Below, piece by piece: positions 55,435 to 64,000 of a DNA stretch of 64,000 bases (position 1 is its first letter; each line of letters begins with the position of its first letter). The notes under the pieces are model-generated. The model saw only the letters and a list, made by a program, of their open reading frames with translations. It searched no databases and had not been told where the DNA came from. Origin of the DNA: Nitzschia sp. DOCU1 (lineage: Eukaryota; Bacillariophyta; Bacillariophyceae; Bacillariales; Bacillariaceae); the NCBI GenBank assembly GCA_951394045.1, contig OX595988.1:558001-622000 (forward strand), read 5' to 3'. The position numbers and the translations under genes are program-made.

Positions 55435-56178
55435 GGTGTTGCGAATGCACCTCTATTTTGCCTTTGAACGACGTGCCGAAGGTGATCTGCTTATGCTAAA
55501 ACGACTGATCAAATCCAGCGGGACCTCGTGTTGAAACAAGGAGCGAAAGACTTAACAAGGTAGTGGCGTTGATGGCAAGAGAGGCTGCTAATGCTGCAGG
55601 TGATCGCTTTCGATGGGAGCATCATCGCAACGAGGTGCCTTGCCGAAAACAGCAAAACAAAGGAGGACCGATTTACAACGTCGCCGAACCTCTCGCTATT
55701 TAGCCAGAGAGCATGTGTCGACGGCATGAGAAGGTCGACTGGCGCGTATGAACAATTTCAGAGTCGAATATTGTATTGGCTGTTTCCCATTTATGGATCG
55801 GCAGTCCTTTGGATGGCAAAAAAATTTATTCAACGAATAAAATTGGTCGGAAAATTGGCGTTGGCTGTTGCCGTCCTTGGCCCACTATCGCGAAGAGAGA
55901 TCCGGTCGGCATGGCGAGACGTTAACGCAAAATTCCTCATTCCCGCGCAAGCTACGTCATCTTTGATTCCATCGATCATATTAAATCCAGTGAAATGAAA
56001 TTGACGCACTTAGATAAGCCCCCGCCGGCCGCGGTCAGACTGCAAGAGGATCTTCCATTGATTGTTTTCTTGCTCGACTTGCCTCCGACACACCCGACCA
56101 TGACATCAATCCGAATCCATACTCGTGCGGGTTATTACATCTTCTTCTTTTGGAGTATCTAAAGGAAGTCAATCGACA
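55435..56178. promoter_or_regulatory. Divergent intergenic region
   Basis: About 740 bp between the EF-hand gene and the dioxygenase gene. A 135-codon plus frame at 55591-55998 lacks recognisable features and is not called. Two promoters are expected. Confidence 0.4.
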
Positions 56179-57588
56179 ATGAATCGATCACGAGCTCTTG
56201 CATCGTTGTATCACCTCTTGTTCTTGTTGCTGTCAAGATCTTCCTCGGATGCCTTTCGATTGTTTCTTCCGTCGCCAACATCATCGGCGACCATTCGTCG
56301 TGGTCGATCAACATCACCTGCCAATAATGGATCGTCGGCGGCATCCAGACTTTTATTTCTGGACCATACTTGTCGAAGACGATCCTCGCGGACGACTCTG
56401 CTCTTCGCTGGTGTAGTGGCAGAAATCGACGAAGAAAGTGGTCAGGCCCGACGATTCATGTACATGACGGAAGAACAAGATCGGTTGCTAAAAGAAAATG
56501 GAGACTATGAAGCGAGTCTCATGAAGAAACCTGTGCCACTGAAACCCAACAAAGTGCGGGGTGGTGCTGGTGGATTTGGGGCTGGTGGGGCTAGTAGTGG
56601 TGATGCAAAGAAGACTGGCAAAAAGAAAAAAACAGACAAAACGGCCGACACTACCAGCGATAATAATCGCGAGGAAATGTTACTAGCAGTACAATCCCAT
56701 GCCAAAACACTCGAGAGGGATGGTTTGGTACGAATCGATAATGTTTTGTCGCCAGAATTGGCAGATGCGCTACAAGACTATCTTTGTGATTTGCGGGTTC
56801 GTGCCAGGGCCGATATCGAAAGTGGGAAAATCAAGGATAGTCAGGAACGCTTTGCAGATGTTCTCTTGAATCAAAACCGATGCGACTTGAAAATTCCTCT
56901 GGGTCCAGCCCCCGTCAACAATGCCTTGCACCATTTATTGGCAACCGAAGCCTCCATCGTACGACATGTTATGGAATACGTATTTGAATCTTACGATGGA
57001 ATTGGCAAAGATGCGGAATTGTGGGAGCTCAATTGCTTTATGAGCAATTCGGGTGCTCGTCGCCAATTAGTCCATGCCGACAACGTTTGTTTAGAACCGA
57101 TTGTGGGTCTCAAAAATGAAATGGAACCGATCGTCTTGACGTGCTTTGTTGCTTTGGAAGATATTGATGCTACCATGGGTCCAACCGTCTGGATGCCAGG
57201 CACTCATACTTTGGAAGCACACAATCAATTCTTTGAAACAGGAAAAGATGAGGCCTCTACTCGCACCGACTCGTACTCTCCCAAGGATGCTATTTTAAAA
57301 TCCAGCACGGCGGTTCTTGGGACGATTCCCAAGGGAGCTTGTGTCATATTTGATCCTCGCGTCTTGCATTGTGCCGGTGGCAATACTTGTCCGGATCCGA
57401 ACAAGACACGGTCATTGTTTTATGTCAGTTTCAAGAATCCCAAGATTGACAATCCCGGATGCCCCTCAACGAGTGGATATGGAATAGCGACGGCGGAGAT
57501 CACCATGGAGGACTTGACGAATGATCTGAGAGCGGAACAGGCCGGGGAGCCGACGCGACGATTACAACTAGTTTCTTGCTTTCCGTGA
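56179..57588 (+). CDS. Phytanoyl-CoA dioxygenase (PhyH)-like Fe(II)/2-oxoglutarate oxygenase, probably plastid-targeted
   Basis: 469 aa from the ATG at 56179, which begins LASLYHLLFLLLSRSSSDAFRLF, a signal peptide with a DAF motif; the frame opens at 56125. An Arg/Ser transit region and a Gly/Lys-rich linker (GGAGGFGAGGASSGDAKKTG) follow. The catalytic domain covers ~190-460: an N-terminal helix starting HAKTLERDGLVRIDNVLSPE, the metal facial triad HxD in RQLVHADN with the distal His in DPRVLHCAGGN, the 2-oxoglutarate Arg in KTRSLFYVSF, and MGPTVWMPGTHTLE typical of PhyH proteins. Such enzymes hydroxylate lipids or small metabolites; the substrate here cannot be predicted. It could act on a plastid pigment or lipid, but that is inference. 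Confidence 0.85.
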   Translation: MNRSRALASLYHLLFLLLSRSSSDAFRLFLPSPTSSATIRRGRSTSPANNGSSAASRLLFLDHTCRRRSSRTTLLFAGVVAEIDEESGQARRFMYMTEEQDRLLKENGDYEASLMKKPVPLKPNKVRGGAGGFGAGGASSGDAKKTGKKKKTDKTADTTSDNNREEMLLAVQSHAKTLERDGLVRIDNVLSPELADALQDYLCDLRVRARADIESGKIKDSQERFADVLLNQNRCDLKIPLGPAPVNNALHHLLATEASIVRHVMEYVFESYDGIGKDAELWELNCFMSNSGARRQLVHADNVCLEPIVGLKNEMEPIVLTCFVALEDIDATMGPTVWMPGTHTLEAHNQFFETGKDEASTRTDSYSPKDAILKSSTAVLGTIPKGACVIFDPRVLHCAGGNTCPDPNKTRSLFYVSFKNPKIDNPGCPSTSGYGIATAEITMEDLTNDLRAEQAGEPTRRLQLVSCFP

Positions 57589-58038
57589 TGTAATATAAAT
57601 TGTAAATTCCAATACTCAACAAATGGTGCGTATTGGTTAGCGATTATTAAATTACAATCGACAGTTCCACGTCTTCAGAACGGCACCAGTGCATTTTGCA
57701 AATGAGATTGACCCGATGCCATTTGAAGGTTGGATGCCTATCAGATGTTTTCCATGCGCTACTTGGTGTTGTTGAATACGATTTATCAGTGATGTAGAAC
57801 ACTGACTCAATCAGACCACAACGTGGATGATTGTATGATACGGCGTCCCAACCAACAGGGAAAGCTGGTGCAGCGTCAGCGTGAGGGTCAAGCCAATAGG
57901 TTTGGTATACATTTGACCGACTCGTTCTGCAACGGCATATTCTGATGCGATGGCTACAATATTTGTAAGCATCAACAAGGAAGTCGATATACCCATGCGA
58001 AACTTTTCTCGACCGAGGTTATCGGCACAAGAACCAAA
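57589..58038. other. Convergent intergenic region with possible 3' exon
   Basis: About 450 bp. On the minus strand, sequence ending ATATTGTAG near 57955 or CGTTGCAG near 57933 could be an acceptor that adds a short tail (ending VKCIPNLLA) to the glucosidase-II-beta-like gene. A 61-codon frame at 57811-57996 is not otherwise supported. Confidence 0.35.
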
Positions 58039-58629
58039 TCATACTTCATCACTCCCATCTTCACAGTCTTTAACTCCGTCATGGACACGCGACGCAAAGA
58101 TGACTTTGCCTATATCACTCTTGCAGGTAAACATGGGCTTTTGAACATGCAAATGCGAACACGCCGATGTGGAAGGCTCGTCACTTCCATCCGGATAACA
58201 ATCGCAATAATCGTCATTTTCAAATCCGACCGTTCCGTCGCTACATTGGATTTGTCGCCGTTTCGCATGTTTCCCGCGAATAGCTGTGACATAATTATGT
58301 CGATTTTCTTCGACTCGTTGCCATAAATGAGTAGCAGCTCGTTGGACTTGATGATGATAGTCGACTTGTGTCCACGAAAACGGCAGTAACGAGACCGAGA
58401 GTGTCGCCGACACCATTGCGGCAGCCAAGCCGGAAAAGCAAGTTTTGGCCCATTTCTGCAAAATTTCGCGACGTCTTCGGCGTTTTCGACGGCCCTTGAC
58501 TTGACCGTAGGACATGGGGGGCTGGGGTGGTCGATTGGTGGATGCTATCGTCGTCGGAAGAATCGGGCCATGGCCAGGATCGCCAGGAAGATTGCGACGG
58601 AGACGAAGTTTCGAGTCGTCACCAAACAT
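58039..58629 (-). CDS. Short type II membrane protein with a glucosidase II beta (PRKCSH) N-terminal-like domain
   Basis: 196 aa as an unspliced frame. The N-terminus is cytosolic and strongly basic (KGRRKRRRRREILQKWAK), followed by one hydrophobic segment (FSGLAAAMVSATLSVSLLPF), giving a type II anchor. The lumenal part has a helix and then a Cys-rich domain: IQCSDGTVGFENDDYCDCYP, DGSDEPSTSAC, MFTCKSDIGKVIFASRVHDG and VKDCEDGSDE. The paired LDLa-like DxSDE calcium boxes are the signature of the glucosidase II beta N-terminal domain, which trims N-glycans with the alpha subunit in the ER. The acidic coiled coil, MRH domain and HDEL of true beta subunits are missing. The last codons GAA|GTATGA could be a splice donor, so the C-terminus is uncertain. 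Confidence 0.78.
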   Translation of the reverse strand: MFGDDSKLRLRRNLPGDPGHGPILPTTIASTNRPPQPPMSYGQVKGRRKRRRRREILQKWAKTCFSGLAAAMVSATLSVSLLPFSWTQVDYHHQVQRAATHLWQRVEENRHNYVTAIRGKHAKRRQIQCSDGTVGFENDDYCDCYPDGSDEPSTSACSHLHVQKPMFTCKSDIGKVIFASRVHDGVKDCEDGSDEV

Positions 58630-59057
58630 TTTAAGTCTCCTTTCCCCACCAGCAGAAACGCGTTACACTTTAACGAAGGGGTACGCAAGGAGATGTTGCA
58701 CAACACGATAGATAATGGATGGTGATGTGTGGTGTGACATGAATGGTTCAGGACGCCGGCGTCATGGTCATCATCGTTCAATTTCAAAACGAAAAAAAAA
58801 GGCCATCGAGGCGCAGAAATTCGAAAATCCAGATCGAAGGAGTCAAATTTCATTGATTGACTTCTTCGACTAATCCCATTGGTCCACCACTACGACGATA
58901 TGAGCCTGCACGCCGCATTCGCGATCTTTCAAGTAAGAATTTCAACGTCGATCAGAACTTTCCCGCCGCCGCTTTCGTTGTTAAAACAAGGGACACTGAA
59001 CAATGGCCACAAAACCTAACATTCATCCTGATAGCGTCAACTAGTGATGATTTGAAA

Positions 59058-59678
59058 ATGAGGCTACAACACTTGTACATCATCAGTGGACTTGTTCTTT
59101 TGCTCGCTTGCCTGGCCGTGGAAGCCTTGGTGTGTCGTCTGCCGCCAAAGACGAGTCTGTTAAAAAGTGATGCCGGTCACCGCCAGCGACCGCTTCTCAT
59201 CCGAGCTATTCCTGGTAATAGCCTTGGCGACGACGAAGAGGAAGAAGTCTTTAGTTATGATCAACGAAGTCGCTTTTTTGTCGCCTCAACGTCCCAGAAT
59301 AATAGTACCAGCCAAGCCAACTATTTGGACGACTTGACTCCACCTCCCATTAATATCGCCAGGGATTCCATTTTGTTTAGTGAAAATCCCGCCACCAAAC
59401 GCAACAATGCCTTCTTGCAAGTTTGGAAATTATGTCGACAATATCTACCACCCATTTGTACAGGAGAGTATCCATGGCGAGATACCAGCATTACCGAACG
59501 AAATCCGCTAGGCGCGCTCTACAATATGGTGCTAGTGAGAATTCCCACCATGGTCATTGGGGTAGTGTACTTCAAGAATTTGTGGGAAGGGCATCCGTTG
59601 ATTATGGACTTTGGGCAAGGGGCATTTGAAATGAGTCCGATTGTTGTCATTTCCGTATTGGCACTGATATTGGCATAA
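59058..59678 (+). CDS. Putative targeted membrane protein, unknown function
   Basis: 206 aa from the ATG at 59058, chosen because it starts a signal peptide (MRLQHLYIISGLVLLLACLAVEA); the frame opens at 58857. The sequence after the signal is basic and Ser-rich (RLPPKTSLLKSDAGHRQRPLLIRA), like a transit peptide but without the expected Phe, so plastid targeting is possible rather than clear. The rest includes ERNPLGALYNMVLVRIPTMV, a hydrophobic stretch IGVVYFKNLWEGHPLIMDFG and a final hydrophobic segment SPIVVISVLALILA, which could anchor the C-terminus. Family unknown. The gene converges on the GGQ-protein gene. Confidence 0.65.
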   Translation: MRLQHLYIISGLVLLLACLAVEALVCRLPPKTSLLKSDAGHRQRPLLIRAIPGNSLGDDEEEEVFSYDQRSRFFVASTSQNNSTSQANYLDDLTPPPINIARDSILFSENPATKRNNAFLQVWKLCRQYLPPICTGEYPWRDTSITERNPLGALYNMVLVRIPTMVIGVVYFKNLWEGHPLIMDFGQGAFEMSPIVVISVLALILA

Positions 59679-60036
59679 GCAACAAGCAAAAGAAGCCGTA
59701 CTATTGCATCGAACTAGAAAAGGGAAGTCACTTCCTTTACCGTCCACGACACCTCCCACTTCACGCAAGCATACGAACTGTAGCCAACGGTGGCCAAGAG
59801 AGGAAACGTGTGTCAACGAGAGAGCCGTAGCAACAATCCAGAATCTGGAAAAATGTCGGCTACCATATGGACGTCGGGAAAACTCGTACTCCGATGCATG
59901 GCGGTGCCATGGCCCCTCAACACTCTCGAGAAGACTATATACCACACTTCACTAAACCCCCAACTATAAGCTAGAATAAATGCATAATTGATGCCTTTTC
60001 TACTAAGACTAGAGATGACATCCGCCACACGGTGAC
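59679..60036. other. Convergent intergenic region
   Basis: About 360 bp between two stop codons. The 137-codon minus frame at 59532-59945 is antisense to the upstream gene and is not called. Confidence 0.4.
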
Positions 60037-61500
60037 TCAATAATAGAAATCATCTGGGTCAACCAAGCTGTCGCCGTCGTCCTGTTGCTGTGAATCCTTT
60101 TCCAGTTGCTTTTTCCGTAACCTCGCGCGATTCTTGGATTTGGACTTTTGTCGTTTTGCAGAAGCTATTTGCTGTTTCATGCTCAACTTGGATTGGCTTC
60201 CATTCAAGTATTCATCCAACTTTTCTTTCAAGCGCTTACGAGCAATCTTTCGGTTTTGCTGCAACGATCGAGTGTCTTGACACTCCACTCGTAGCTGAGT
60301 AGGTTCATGTACCAGCAAGACTCGATTGCTGGTTTTGTTGACCTTTTGTCCGCCTGGACCCGATCCTCGTACAAATGTCTCGGTCAACTCCTCTTCGTTG
60401 AGTTCTATTTCCACCTTCATGGGAGCATCATTCTTGCCTTTGCCCTCTGCTTTGCGCATGAACGTGGAAATCTCGTTGAGTAACATTTCTCTCAACTCCA
60501 CATTTGGCAAGACAGCGACCAGCTCGGACAATTCATCCAGTGCATAAAAGTCTCCGGTAGGAACCAGCAAGGGATCGCTACTCAAGGAAGGATCCTTTCG
60601 AACCAGTCGAAACAATTCCAAGGCTTGCTGAACGTATTTCTCCACTTCAGCCTTTGTTGATTGTGTATGGTCATCTATGGCTTGAAGTAACTCAGACGAT
60701 AACTGTTGAAGCTGGCCGTACAGTTGTAGTCCAAGAATAGTCTTGATTCGTTCGGCGACAGCTTTTTGACGCTCGCGGTTCCAAGTCTGAACTATATCAC
60801 GCTCCCGTTTCCATTCGTCGTAGGTTTCCATAACCTCGTATATACCCGGAGAGCTGAAAACCAAATCCAATTTGGCATTTCGATCCCAGACGATCCTTTC
60901 TTTGTATTTGACGCCAACGATTCGATGTTCGGGCAGAGCTTTGGCCAACATTGTCTCTTTTCCAGCCACACTTGTGTTGGGTGCGTCCATGGGAGATTCC
61001 ACAACTTTATCCTCTACTCGATCGTAATGCAAAATAGAAAAATCGCTTGCTTGAAGCATATAGTCCCACTCAATTCTTCGCAGAACCTCGCCGACAGGGA
61101 CAAGTCGTTCTTTTGTCTCCCCTGGCATAACATTGTCCTTTCCGGCGAAAAGTCGTTCGTAAGCAGGGCTGGAAACGTCTTGCAACTTGAACAATCGTGC
61201 TTCCACACCACGGAGTCCTCGTCCTAATAAAGACGCAAGCTCAGGGATGCTTCGTTCCTTGTTGTTCCATAAGAGGCGATCTTGGTCGAGACTCCATTCG
61301 CGATACAGATTGGCCATCGGGGGCAGAGGTTCAACGTCGTTTCCTTCCGCGTTGCCTGTGGAAAGCTGCCGTACTACCTTAGGAAAGGTGATAGTTCTAG
61401 TTAACCTCACATTTAGAGAGCGGATGGTGAAGCCTTTGGACAATACAGAGAACATTGCGACGACTACAATACGCCAAACGAACAGGCGAGTTGATTTCAT
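60037..61500 (-). CDS. Probable plastid-targeted GGQ release-factor-like protein with SANT-like and MJ1316/DUF504 domains
   Basis: 487 aa from the ATG at 61500 (frame opens at 61563). The start gives a signal peptide (RLFVWRIVVVAMFSVLSKGF) with an SKGF motif, suggesting plastid import. Residues ~66-120 form a SANT/Myb-like helical module (YREWSLDQDRLLWNNKERSI, LGRGLRGVEARLFKL). Residues ~133-216 match the MJ1316/DUF504 domain proposed to recognise cyclic-phosphate RNA ends: VPVGEVLRRIEWDYML, SDFSILHYDRVEDKVVESPM, PEHRIVGVKYKERIVWDRNA, KLDLVF. A helical linker follows. The C-terminus is a class I release-factor catalytic domain: FVRGSGPGGQKVNKTSNRVL with GGQ at ~383-385, VECQDTRSLQQNRKIARKRL, then a Lys/Arg-rich tail (KRQKSKSKNRARLRKKQLEK) as in ICT1/MTRFR rescue factors. 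It lacks the stop-codon-reading domain, so ribosome rescue is more likely than normal termination. Confidence 0.85.
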   Translation of the reverse strand: MKSTRLFVWRIVVVAMFSVLSKGFTIRSLNVRLTRTITFPKVVRQLSTGNAEGNDVEPLPPMANLYREWSLDQDRLLWNNKERSIPELASLLGRGLRGVEARLFKLQDVSSPAYERLFAGKDNVMPGETKERLVPVGEVLRRIEWDYMLQASDFSILHYDRVEDKVVESPMDAPNTSVAGKETMLAKALPEHRIVGVKYKERIVWDRNAKLDLVFSSPGIYEVMETYDEWKRERDIVQTWNRERQKAVAERIKTILGLQLYGQLQQLSSELLQAIDDHTQSTKAEVEKYVQQALELFRLVRKDPSLSSDPLLVPTGDFYALDELSELVAVLPNVELREMLLNEISTFMRKAEGKGKNDAPMKVEIELNEEELTETFVRGSGPGGQKVNKTSNRVLLVHEPTQLRVECQDTRSLQQNRKIARKRLKEKLDEYLNGSQSKLSMKQQIASAKRQKSKSKNRARLRKKQLEKDSQQQDDGDSLVDPDDFYY

Positions 61501-62171
61501 TTGGGCGTCGTTGCGACTGATCCTACTCAAGCCTTGAGACCATAGAGAGCTCCCATAAGGCACTCAAGCAGTGCTGGAGAGCCTCTCGTGTCTTGTCTTC
61601 TGCTACTTTGCAAGCTGTTTACATGCCATCGTCGATAACAACGCTGGCGAGAACAAAACAACGGCATCATCAAATTTTCGTCACTCCGACAGAAATCCCA
61701 ATCCATCGGCACGATGACGTCCTCGAGTGAATATCGCGCGCTTTTCTGGTCGGTCCTTCCGTCGCTCTGGCTAAAACGTTCACCATCCATAGCGGTGCGG
61801 CGGCCAGGCCCTCCGTCCGTTGAGAGCCAAGAGGGTCAATCTACGTACACTCCAGTACATTTGGCTACATGAAACGAGGAATCATATCCTCAGCACCTCG
61901 GATGGGCTGCCGGCTCGAGTGATGTAGATTTCCTACGAATATCTACGGAAAAGTTTGCCGGCAAGCCTTACGAAAAGACTGCACGCACATCATGTACGAG
62001 CGGGGCGGGGGTCGCAGGCACACGGGCTTTGCATCCGCAAAGGTCAGCAGCAAGGTTATTTTTTGGAAATTTGTTACGAAGCGTATTTCATTAGGCGCGC
62101 ATTACATACCGACAAAGGCACTACACTTGTGGTGGTATTGTGAAGCTTGTGTAGCTTGCAAAAGTCTCGTA
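61501..62171. promoter_or_regulatory. Divergent intergenic region
   Basis: About 670 bp between divergent starts. The plus-strand frame stays open from 61992 into the next gene, so a longer N-terminus there is possible. No other feature. Confidence 0.4.
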
Positions 62172-64000
62172 ATGTCTCGCAGAGGGAGACATAGTAAACG
62201 TCCGGGGGACAGGGGAGGAGGAGCAATGGATTCATCGTTTGGGACTGGAGGGGGAGGTGCGGGTCATTATTACACCTATGGTGCTGGGAGTGGCCAACAC
62301 CCACAAGCACCACAAATGGGCCACCAACACTATCATCGGGGGCAAACAGAGTCTCCTATGATGGTTTCTTCACCGACTCCACCTTATTTGCCTCCTGGTT
62401 ATGCTGGGGGTGCTGCTGCAAACGTTCGGGATCCATCGGCTTCCTCAGGGGGTATGGGCTTTAATCCATATCAAGAACAACAGGCGGGGGGAGGACAACA
62501 GCATGGCTGGATCCCGATCCAACAGGCCGAACATCACGGCTTCCAGCAACAGCAGGCTGCATTGTATTTTAATCCGCAGGCATTTCCTCCTCCTCCACCG
62601 CCGCATGCTCTTTCAGGCTCTCCTCCAGCCGGGGGACCAGTCGAAGCATCACAGATGGGGTTTGCTGGTGCTGCGGGGATGGCAACAGCAGGGGGAGGGG
62701 AACATTCACGGGGTACTTCAACTGGAGATAGTGGGGAAATCGATCAGGTGGTTCAACAAGATATCGAACGGGGCTTACGTATCGACTTTTACTCTGAATC
62801 GAATAATGTGCTTTTGGCGTCCTGGGCATCTTTCTTTCGAGATCAGTTTGTGGAGGCCCGCAACCAGCTGGCCAAAGCCAACTATGATCGCACTGCCGAG
62901 TCCTATAGAAGAGCGACTCATTTTGTGGAGCGGGTTGAGTATAAAATTCTTAATACGGGTGCAATGAAACAACTGTTTCGGCGGCATCCTCTTACAAGCA
63001 TCAACGATCCGGTAAGTGCTGCTGGTTGGTTGCTGCTTATTCCATAACTGTAGAAAGAAGACTACCGTTGGTCATAACCCGCATCTTGATGTACTGAAGG
63101 AACTCCTCCTCTCACGGCGGTTGTTATTCTCCTCCTTGTTCTTGTTTACCTTCGTTCCTGCTGCTCGTACTACCAGATCTTTGTTGATGCTTGCTACCGT
63201 AGCATCATCGACTATTCCAGCCGAAACCCACCATTTGATGGCTTTGCTTTCGGCAACCCAACCTGGCGTGATTACATGTGGTATAAAGCTGGCTTGATGA
63301 AGGTCATTGACGACGGTAGGATGAAATTTCTGGAGTGGTACTCCCAGACGATCCGGGAACAAGTAGGTAAGAAGTTATCTGTGCAGATTCGAGTTGCTCA
63401 AATTCTTATTACCTTTCGCTCAAGACTTTGCGTCGTTGACAATCATAAAGATTCATTTATTCATAATGAGGCATCAAAAGGTGCCACTGATAGCGGCGAA
63501 GTAGAAAAGCTGAAAAAGCGAATCCGCGGGGATATTTTGGAGGCTGCAAAAGCAGGGATGAGCTACGAAGCCCCATATTCTCGCGTGAAGCAATTCTACA
63601 TGAGTCTCTACAACAATGTGCTTCTCAACATGTCGCAACAACAACAGCCAACAATGGCGGCAGACGCGCTTATCGGTGGAAAGCGCGTCCGCGAAGTCTT
63701 TCATTTGGAAGAAGAAGCATTTTTGCTTGCGGTACTTCGTGGTCACTTTAGTACCAAGGACAAGGTTGAACCGTCAGCCCCTCAGGATGCAGCACCTCCA
63801 AAGAAGACCTCGTCGTCTCTGGCTCAGATTGTGTCAGAGGCGAACGAAATCAGTCAGCTTCTTGCTTCCCAAGAAGCGGATGTGAAGGTCGATGCTCCGT
63901 TGATCATGTTCCCTACACAAGTTGATACTGCACTACCACCACCAGCTGCAGCAACAACAGAAACCACTAGTGCGGTGGAGGGCGCACCACCACCAACGGA
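62172..64000 (+). CDS. Gly/Gln/Pro-rich protein of unknown function, truncated by the window end
   Basis: Exon 1 runs 62172-63011 and is followed by GTAAGT. The next exon starts at 63177 after CTACCAG and rejoins in phase (SINDP then IFVDACYRSIID). It either continues open to the window end or is interrupted by a 114-nt intron, 63367-63480 (GTAAGA...CAAAAG), which gives REQVGATDSGEVEKLKKRIR. The first ~190 residues are low complexity (Gly, Gln, Pro, His, with MSRRGRHSKRPGDRGGG at the start). A conserved-looking helical domain follows: DIERGLRIDFYSESNNVLLA, SWASFFRDQFVEARNQLAKA, ESYRRATHFVERVEYKILN, NPTWRDYMWYKAGLMKVIDD, RMKFLEWYSQTIREQ. After that come KQFYMSLYNNVLLN and an Ala/Pro/Thr-rich tail. 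No targeting peptide. The layout suggests a nuclear or RNA-granule protein, but I cannot name the family. The true end lies outside the window. Confidence 0.72.

Follow-up and report, generated by a model that had tools for sequence, protein, structure and literature searches.

What does a single diatom gene make when it joins a GGQ ribosome-rescue domain to an MJ1316 domain, and to which organelle would the product be sent? The question is raised by a 64,000-nucleotide stretch of the Nitzschia sp. DOCU1 genome (contig OX595988.1, positions 558,001 to 622,000; here called the window), in which an earlier reading made from the letters alone (the sequence-only reading) had proposed such a fusion on the minus strand at 60037..61500. 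We confirmed the MJ1316-GGQ fusion in one diatom gene, the gene itself being graded as probable. Judging from sequence comparison, its product is probably a diatom representative of MTRFR (C12orf65), a family of peptidyl-tRNA hydrolases that act independently of codons, and carries MJ1316 and helical segments as an N-terminal extension.

Two domains in one gene

A Pfam search of the 487-residue protein returned two families above their cut-offs, MJ1316 and RF-1, and three further rows below theirs. The MJ1316 block (PF04457) that had been claimed was matched at residues 135-207 (60880-61098) with E 1.5e-12 and 48.4 bits against a cut-off of 26.3, and contains the motifs VPVGEVLRRIEWD, YDRV, PEHRI and IVWDR. 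The GGQ placed at 60346-60354 was recovered as residues 383-385, within an RF-1 match (PF00472, residues 362-471) with E 3.8e-23 and 82.1 bits against 35. The stricter whole-protein models of NCBIfam all scored below their cut-offs (RF2, 60.3/370 bits; ArfB, 48.1/100; the MJ1316-type model NF003272, 12.8/92, E 0.14). The first in-frame ATG is at 61500 and the frame is open throughout 487 codons, so that on the genomic reading no intron is required. The features of the gene are:

60037..61500, minus strand: complete open reading frame (ORF) of the MTRFR-MJ1316 fusion protein, 487 amino acids; ATG at 61500, stop at 60037-60039
61432..61500, minus strand: signal-peptide-like segment MKSTRLFVWRIVVVAMFSVLSKG, residues 1-23; predicted helix 4-21; ATG context CAA-ATG-A
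61453..61455, minus strand: Met16, putative second start that would open a mitochondrial-type presequence; context GCA-ATG-T
61363..61431, minus strand: transit-peptide-like segment, residues 24-46, with F24 first, basic, zero acidic residues; putative targeting role
61144..61317, minus strand: conserved segment, residues 62-119, four predicted helices, from alignment and predicted structure; SANT-like by eye only
60880..61098, minus strand: MJ1316 domain (PF04457), residues 135-207; E 1.5e-12
60445..60843, minus strand: conserved helical region, residues 220-352, from alignment and predicted structure
60193..60417, minus strand: GGQ domain (PF00472), residues 362-436, nearest to MTRFR
60346..60354, minus strand: catalytic GGQ motif, residues 383-385, invariant in the alignment
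60064..60189, minus strand: basic C-terminal helix, residues 438-479, aligning with the human mtRF-R tail up to residue 476

The predicted structure (mean predicted local distance difference test, pLDDT, 86; predicted template modelling score, pTM, 0.77) consists of a helix at 4-21, a low-confidence stretch at 22-66, four helices at 71-119, an alpha/beta unit at 136-206, a helical region at 220-352, the GGQ domain and a long C-terminal helix at 438-479. The roughly 130 residues at 220-352, between MJ1316 and GGQ, gave no Pfam match and no convincing fold match. The SANT-like helices of the sequence-only reading, seen by eye, did not hold up: no Myb/SANT match was found at E 10 with the window protein or at 0.01 with the 82 members of the alignment described below.

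The search for homologues covered 5.8 billion proteins and gave 502 relatives, of which the best 120 were listed; both domains are present in 120/120 of these. We aligned the window protein with 81 of the 120 and searched the aligned set again with Pfam, and MJ1316 and RF-1 were both matched in 82/82 sequences, which indicates a stable protein and not a chance fusion. The fusion is also found in transcriptome-derived homologues, including P0052 (MMETSP) and P0120 (MMETSP0786, Thalassionema frauenfeldii), which argues against a false join of two genes. The claim of two domains in one gene is thus borne out. Named members among the listed relatives belong to Cylindrotheca, Fistulifera, Seminavis, Amphora, Thalassionema and one Bacillariaceae bin; T. 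frauenfeldii was checked to be a diatom, and we take the others to be diatoms as well.

Within the MJ1316 domain, residues D160, R161, P190, H192, R193, W205 and D206 are invariant across the 82 sequences and Y159, E191, I194 and V204 are conserved in at least 90%, while R207 belongs to neither group. The same positions are presumably conserved in archaeal MJ1316. Among candidate prokaryotic relatives, 40 stretches of genome contigs matched a pattern and 0 were confirmed as MJ1316. A sequence search of the PDB with the MJ1316 piece matched zero chains at E 10, and a fold search with residues 60-356 gave nothing at E <= 0.001. No solved MJ1316 structure having been found by sequence, the assignment is based on the profile match and the confident models. 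In a genome-wide search (52 Mb) the fusion gene was the sole MJ1316 locus and, by our reading of the frames, it is also the only MTRFR-like gene.

A fusion of a C12orf65-like domain with MJ1316 was published in 2019 by Burroughs and Aravind (section 2.5, PMC6514570). It has the same two domains and comes with the same proposal of peptide release coupled to organellar RNA damage; with both the fusion and the hypothesis in print since 2019, the central idea is not new. The published fusion may be this very family, its organisms being unnamed in the available text. That text mentions neither targeting signals nor additional helical regions, both of which are described here. Across 5.39 million open papers, MJ1316 is mentioned in two, one of them on Lactobacillaceae; MJ1316 and C12orf65 are mentioned together only in PMC6514570 and DUF504 is unmentioned (UPF0248 and LENG9 were not searched as single terms); we found no experiments on an MTRFR-MJ1316 fusion in the available text of the open literature. 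The present analysis contributes the breadth of conservation, the MTRFR assignment, the single locus and the nested targeting signals, and not the fusion.

Relation of the GGQ module to MTRFR and ICT1

The GGQ domain with its basic tail had been described as of the ICT1/MTRFR type, and of the two names it is the second that stands: by sequence, the module is nearest to MTRFR/C12orf65, not ICT1. It is an RF-1-type domain with GGQ and without a codon-recognition domain beside it, no second release-factor domain having been listed in the Pfam search. G383-G384-Q385 is invariant across the 82 sequences, and the basic helical tail at 438-479 can be aligned with 7a5h as far as model residue 476. Human MTRFR (mtRF-R, C12orf65; 7a5h, 2rsm) has been seen with a separate protein, MTRES1, whereas here MJ1316 lies in the same chain; at 166 residues, the human mtRF-R chain in 7a5h is too short to hold MJ1316 as well.

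ICT1/ArfB (YaeJ) resembles the fusion protein, itself a putative rescue factor, in being codon-independent, in its GGQ and in its basic tail, but its GGQ domain carries a helical insertion (PMC3985003) that the fusion protein lacks, and the sequence match is weaker (E 0.055 at best by sequence, 0.013 with a profile). The fusion protein fills 110 profile positions with 110 residues, against 109 positions over 131 residues in the ArfB/ICT1-like loci of this genome. We rejected ICT1/ArfB membership on the missing insertion and on the ArfB NCBIfam score (48.1/100 bits). As a separate observation, the genome holds two near-identical ArfB/ICT1-like genes on different contigs (L006, C11:5881-6273; L007, C9:1652941-1653333), one of them with a weak further RF-1 match beside it; both have an N-terminus of plastid-type appearance (ISA|FRLSAF) with an internal Met.

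With the last 142 residues as query, 290 matches were obtained, the best 120 of which were listed. Many of the 57 sequences examined are apparent cut pieces of the fused protein; the others include factors from fungi and animals and a Tetraparma gracilis protein of 120 residues, and the named fungal and animal relatives among the matches listed are annotated as mitochondrial. The MJ1316 piece as query gave no match, a limit of the method, since no candidate had three words in common with it. In a tree of the GGQ domain built from 152 rows and 105 columns, whose bootstrap is not settled, the window protein and two Cylindrotheca sequences share a clade of 21 rows (100/100); the tree does not date the fusion. 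In viral contigs, 90 stretches at 50 loci matched within query residues 321-485, none at MJ1316.

N-terminal signals and organelle location

In the window protein the N-terminal sequence is MKSTRLFVWRIVVVAMFSVLSKG|FTIRSLNVRLTRTITFPKVVRQLSTGNAE. Diatom plastid proteins are marked by a signal peptide with F at position +1 after it (PMC4329603). To count this layout, we took 121 sequences, left out 6 without the core motif, 24 with an extension of <35 residues and 4 not starting with Met, and applied a fixed rule to the remaining 87. A signal peptide with Phe at +1 was found in 43/87, compared with a mean of 6.6 and a maximum of 13 in 200 shuffles. In a small control with paralogues of this genome, a plastid-like RF1 and an ArfB-like protein passed and SmpB, RF2 and a mitochondrial-like RF1 failed, the paralogue names being our own reading of the frames and not tool output. 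The failing SmpB carries VLC|F by eye with a Glu ahead; the rule thus misses likely true cases.

The plastid location that had been claimed is supported in this respect, and import solely into the plastid is the main rival to the reading that we prefer. The protein would then back up tmRNA and SmpB on stalled ribosomes, and the second Met would be one of the signal peptide's hydrophobic residues, with neutral effect. A tmRNA is present at C63:123386-123717 (81 bits, gathering score 47), on a contig taken as the plastid genome, and the large contig C2 carries an SmpB gene; with the two together, trans-translation is probably retained in the plastid, which gives it rescue capacity, as this rival expects. 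What counts against it is the distribution of Met. A second Met precedes the F in 36/43 passing sequences (32/38 with near-duplicates removed), where the hydrophobic-matched expectation is 14.6 and the maximum of 5000 draws is 26, and Met accounts for 41/567 residues in the signal-peptide segment versus 15/1253 after F. The mitochondrial annotation of the named stand-alone fungal and animal relatives among the matches listed also speaks against a plastid-only factor, which we consider fairly unlikely.

In 52/87 N-termini there is an internal Met with F, L, I or V as the next residue. In these 52, the 32 residues after this Met carry a mean of 5.1 basic and 0.6 acidic residues, the basic, acid-poor character of a mitochondrial-type presequence. 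The claim of a plastid protein is therefore incomplete, such a presequence beginning at Met16 in the window protein; the GGQ module is moreover closest to MTRFR, with its mitochondrial relatives, and by our reading of the frames the genome has no second gene of that type. If Met16 or its equivalent were the true start, with the segment upstream untranslated, the protein would be mitochondrial only. That several homologue gene calls begin near this position (e.g. P0012, P0014, P0018) and that the relatives of the GGQ part just mentioned are mitochondrial would fit. Against this, hydrophobicity averages 1.09 over the 8 residues that precede the internal Met in the 52 sequences (9/52 have an acidic residue there), with basic residues ahead of them by eye, and a small residue with F follows the hydrophobic stretch in 43/87. 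An untranslated leader would not preserve such a layout, and we regard this possibility as very unlikely.

Dual targeting to plastid and mitochondrion is, from the arrangement of these signals, the likeliest reading, with a probability that we put slightly above even. Translation from Met1 would give a signal peptide and a transit peptide starting with F, leading to the plastid, and a shorter product from Met16, made by leaky scanning or from an alternative transcript, would expose the mitochondrial presequence. Position -3 is C at the first ATG and G at the second, which would favour leaky scanning. Alternatively to two starts, a single ambiguous peptide could direct import to both organelles. 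Diatom aminoacyl-tRNA synthetases have the same layout, a signal peptide with an aromatic residue when read from the first Met and a mitochondrial presequence when read from the next one (PMC4494062). They are unrelated enzymes, and there the targeting was tested with green fluorescent protein (GFP), whereas here it is read from sequence; two of them were dual-localised, the plastid signal being faint and variable, and one of the two is without the second Met. Three points weigh on the other side: the mitochondrial-type cleavage motif is enriched weakly, it partly resembles the plastid one (PMC3774753), and internal Mets occur also in 2/4 plastid-like paralogue starts of this genome, as expected if the protein goes to the plastid only. 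If dual targeting is true, a factor with mitochondrial relatives has been placed in a plastid already having tmRNA and SmpB, which raises the question of which stalls escape those.

Proposed action on stalled ribosomes

The likeliest function, to judge from the domain content, is release of the nascent chain from organellar peptidyl-tRNA by the MTRFR-type GGQ domain. The chain would be freed by the GGQ loop reaching into the peptidyl-transferase centre while the basic tail holds ribosomal RNA, in the manner of human mtRF-R on the split large subunit. For its part, MJ1316 may select complexes with a broken RNA end bearing a 2',3'-cyclic phosphate, or may otherwise grip tRNA or rRNA; binding of such ends by MJ1316 is a published prediction (PMC6514570). 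The fusion, its conservation, the family to which the GGQ domain is nearest, the intact GGQ and the N-terminal layout are observed; dual import, peptide release and RNA-end recognition are what we infer for this protein.

The sequence-only reading had joined RNA-damage sensing to ribosome rescue; the physical join in one chain is real, the idea is the published one, and overall its interpretation is partly supported. Taken furthest, a single gene would supply both diatom organelles with a damage-sensing rescue factor, in which MJ1316 reads the 2',3'-cyclic phosphate left by endonucleases on tRNA, rRNA or mRNA and GGQ releases the peptide. We think this unlikely. It would be a one-protein eukaryotic counterpart, without RtcB, of the PrfH-RtcB idea. 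In bacterial operons PrfH with RtcB2 pairs peptide release with repair of broken RNA (PMC9223846), as proposed here, but these are two genes and PrfH keeps a domain of the codon-recognition type (PMC6514570). RtcB was not detected in six frames of this genome, a search that ignored introns and had prokaryotic control genomes, so that a split gene could escape it; a copy of the bacterial scheme is accordingly unsupported.

A second explanation, independent of location, dispenses with damage sensing: MJ1316 and the helical region would replace the S4 protein MTRES1 and hold peptidyl-tRNA on the split large subunit for GGQ. We take MTRES1 and C6orf203 to be one protein. The title of 7a5h places human mtRF-R together with MTRES1 on the split large subunit, the partner being called C6orf203 in PMC9810596, and the roughly 130 conserved, helical residues that separate MJ1316 from GGQ would suit such a clamp. 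The seven invariant MJ1316 residues, conserved as for a ligand site, argue against it, and a separate MTRES1 may be among the eight S4 matches in the genome, counted to family level only (NFACT gave 4). A clamp is conceivable, if rather doubtful. Apparently present once, with GGQ intact and targeting signals that can be read, the fusion gene offers a system for testing the proposal that links organellar RNA damage to peptide release.

The gene neighbourhood gives no function for the fusion protein, and an Rfam search of window positions 56000-64000 gave no match. One Pfam match was obtained among the four neighbouring ORFs, a glucosidase II beta-like domain (PF12999) at 58039-58629 on the minus strand (E 6.3e-13).
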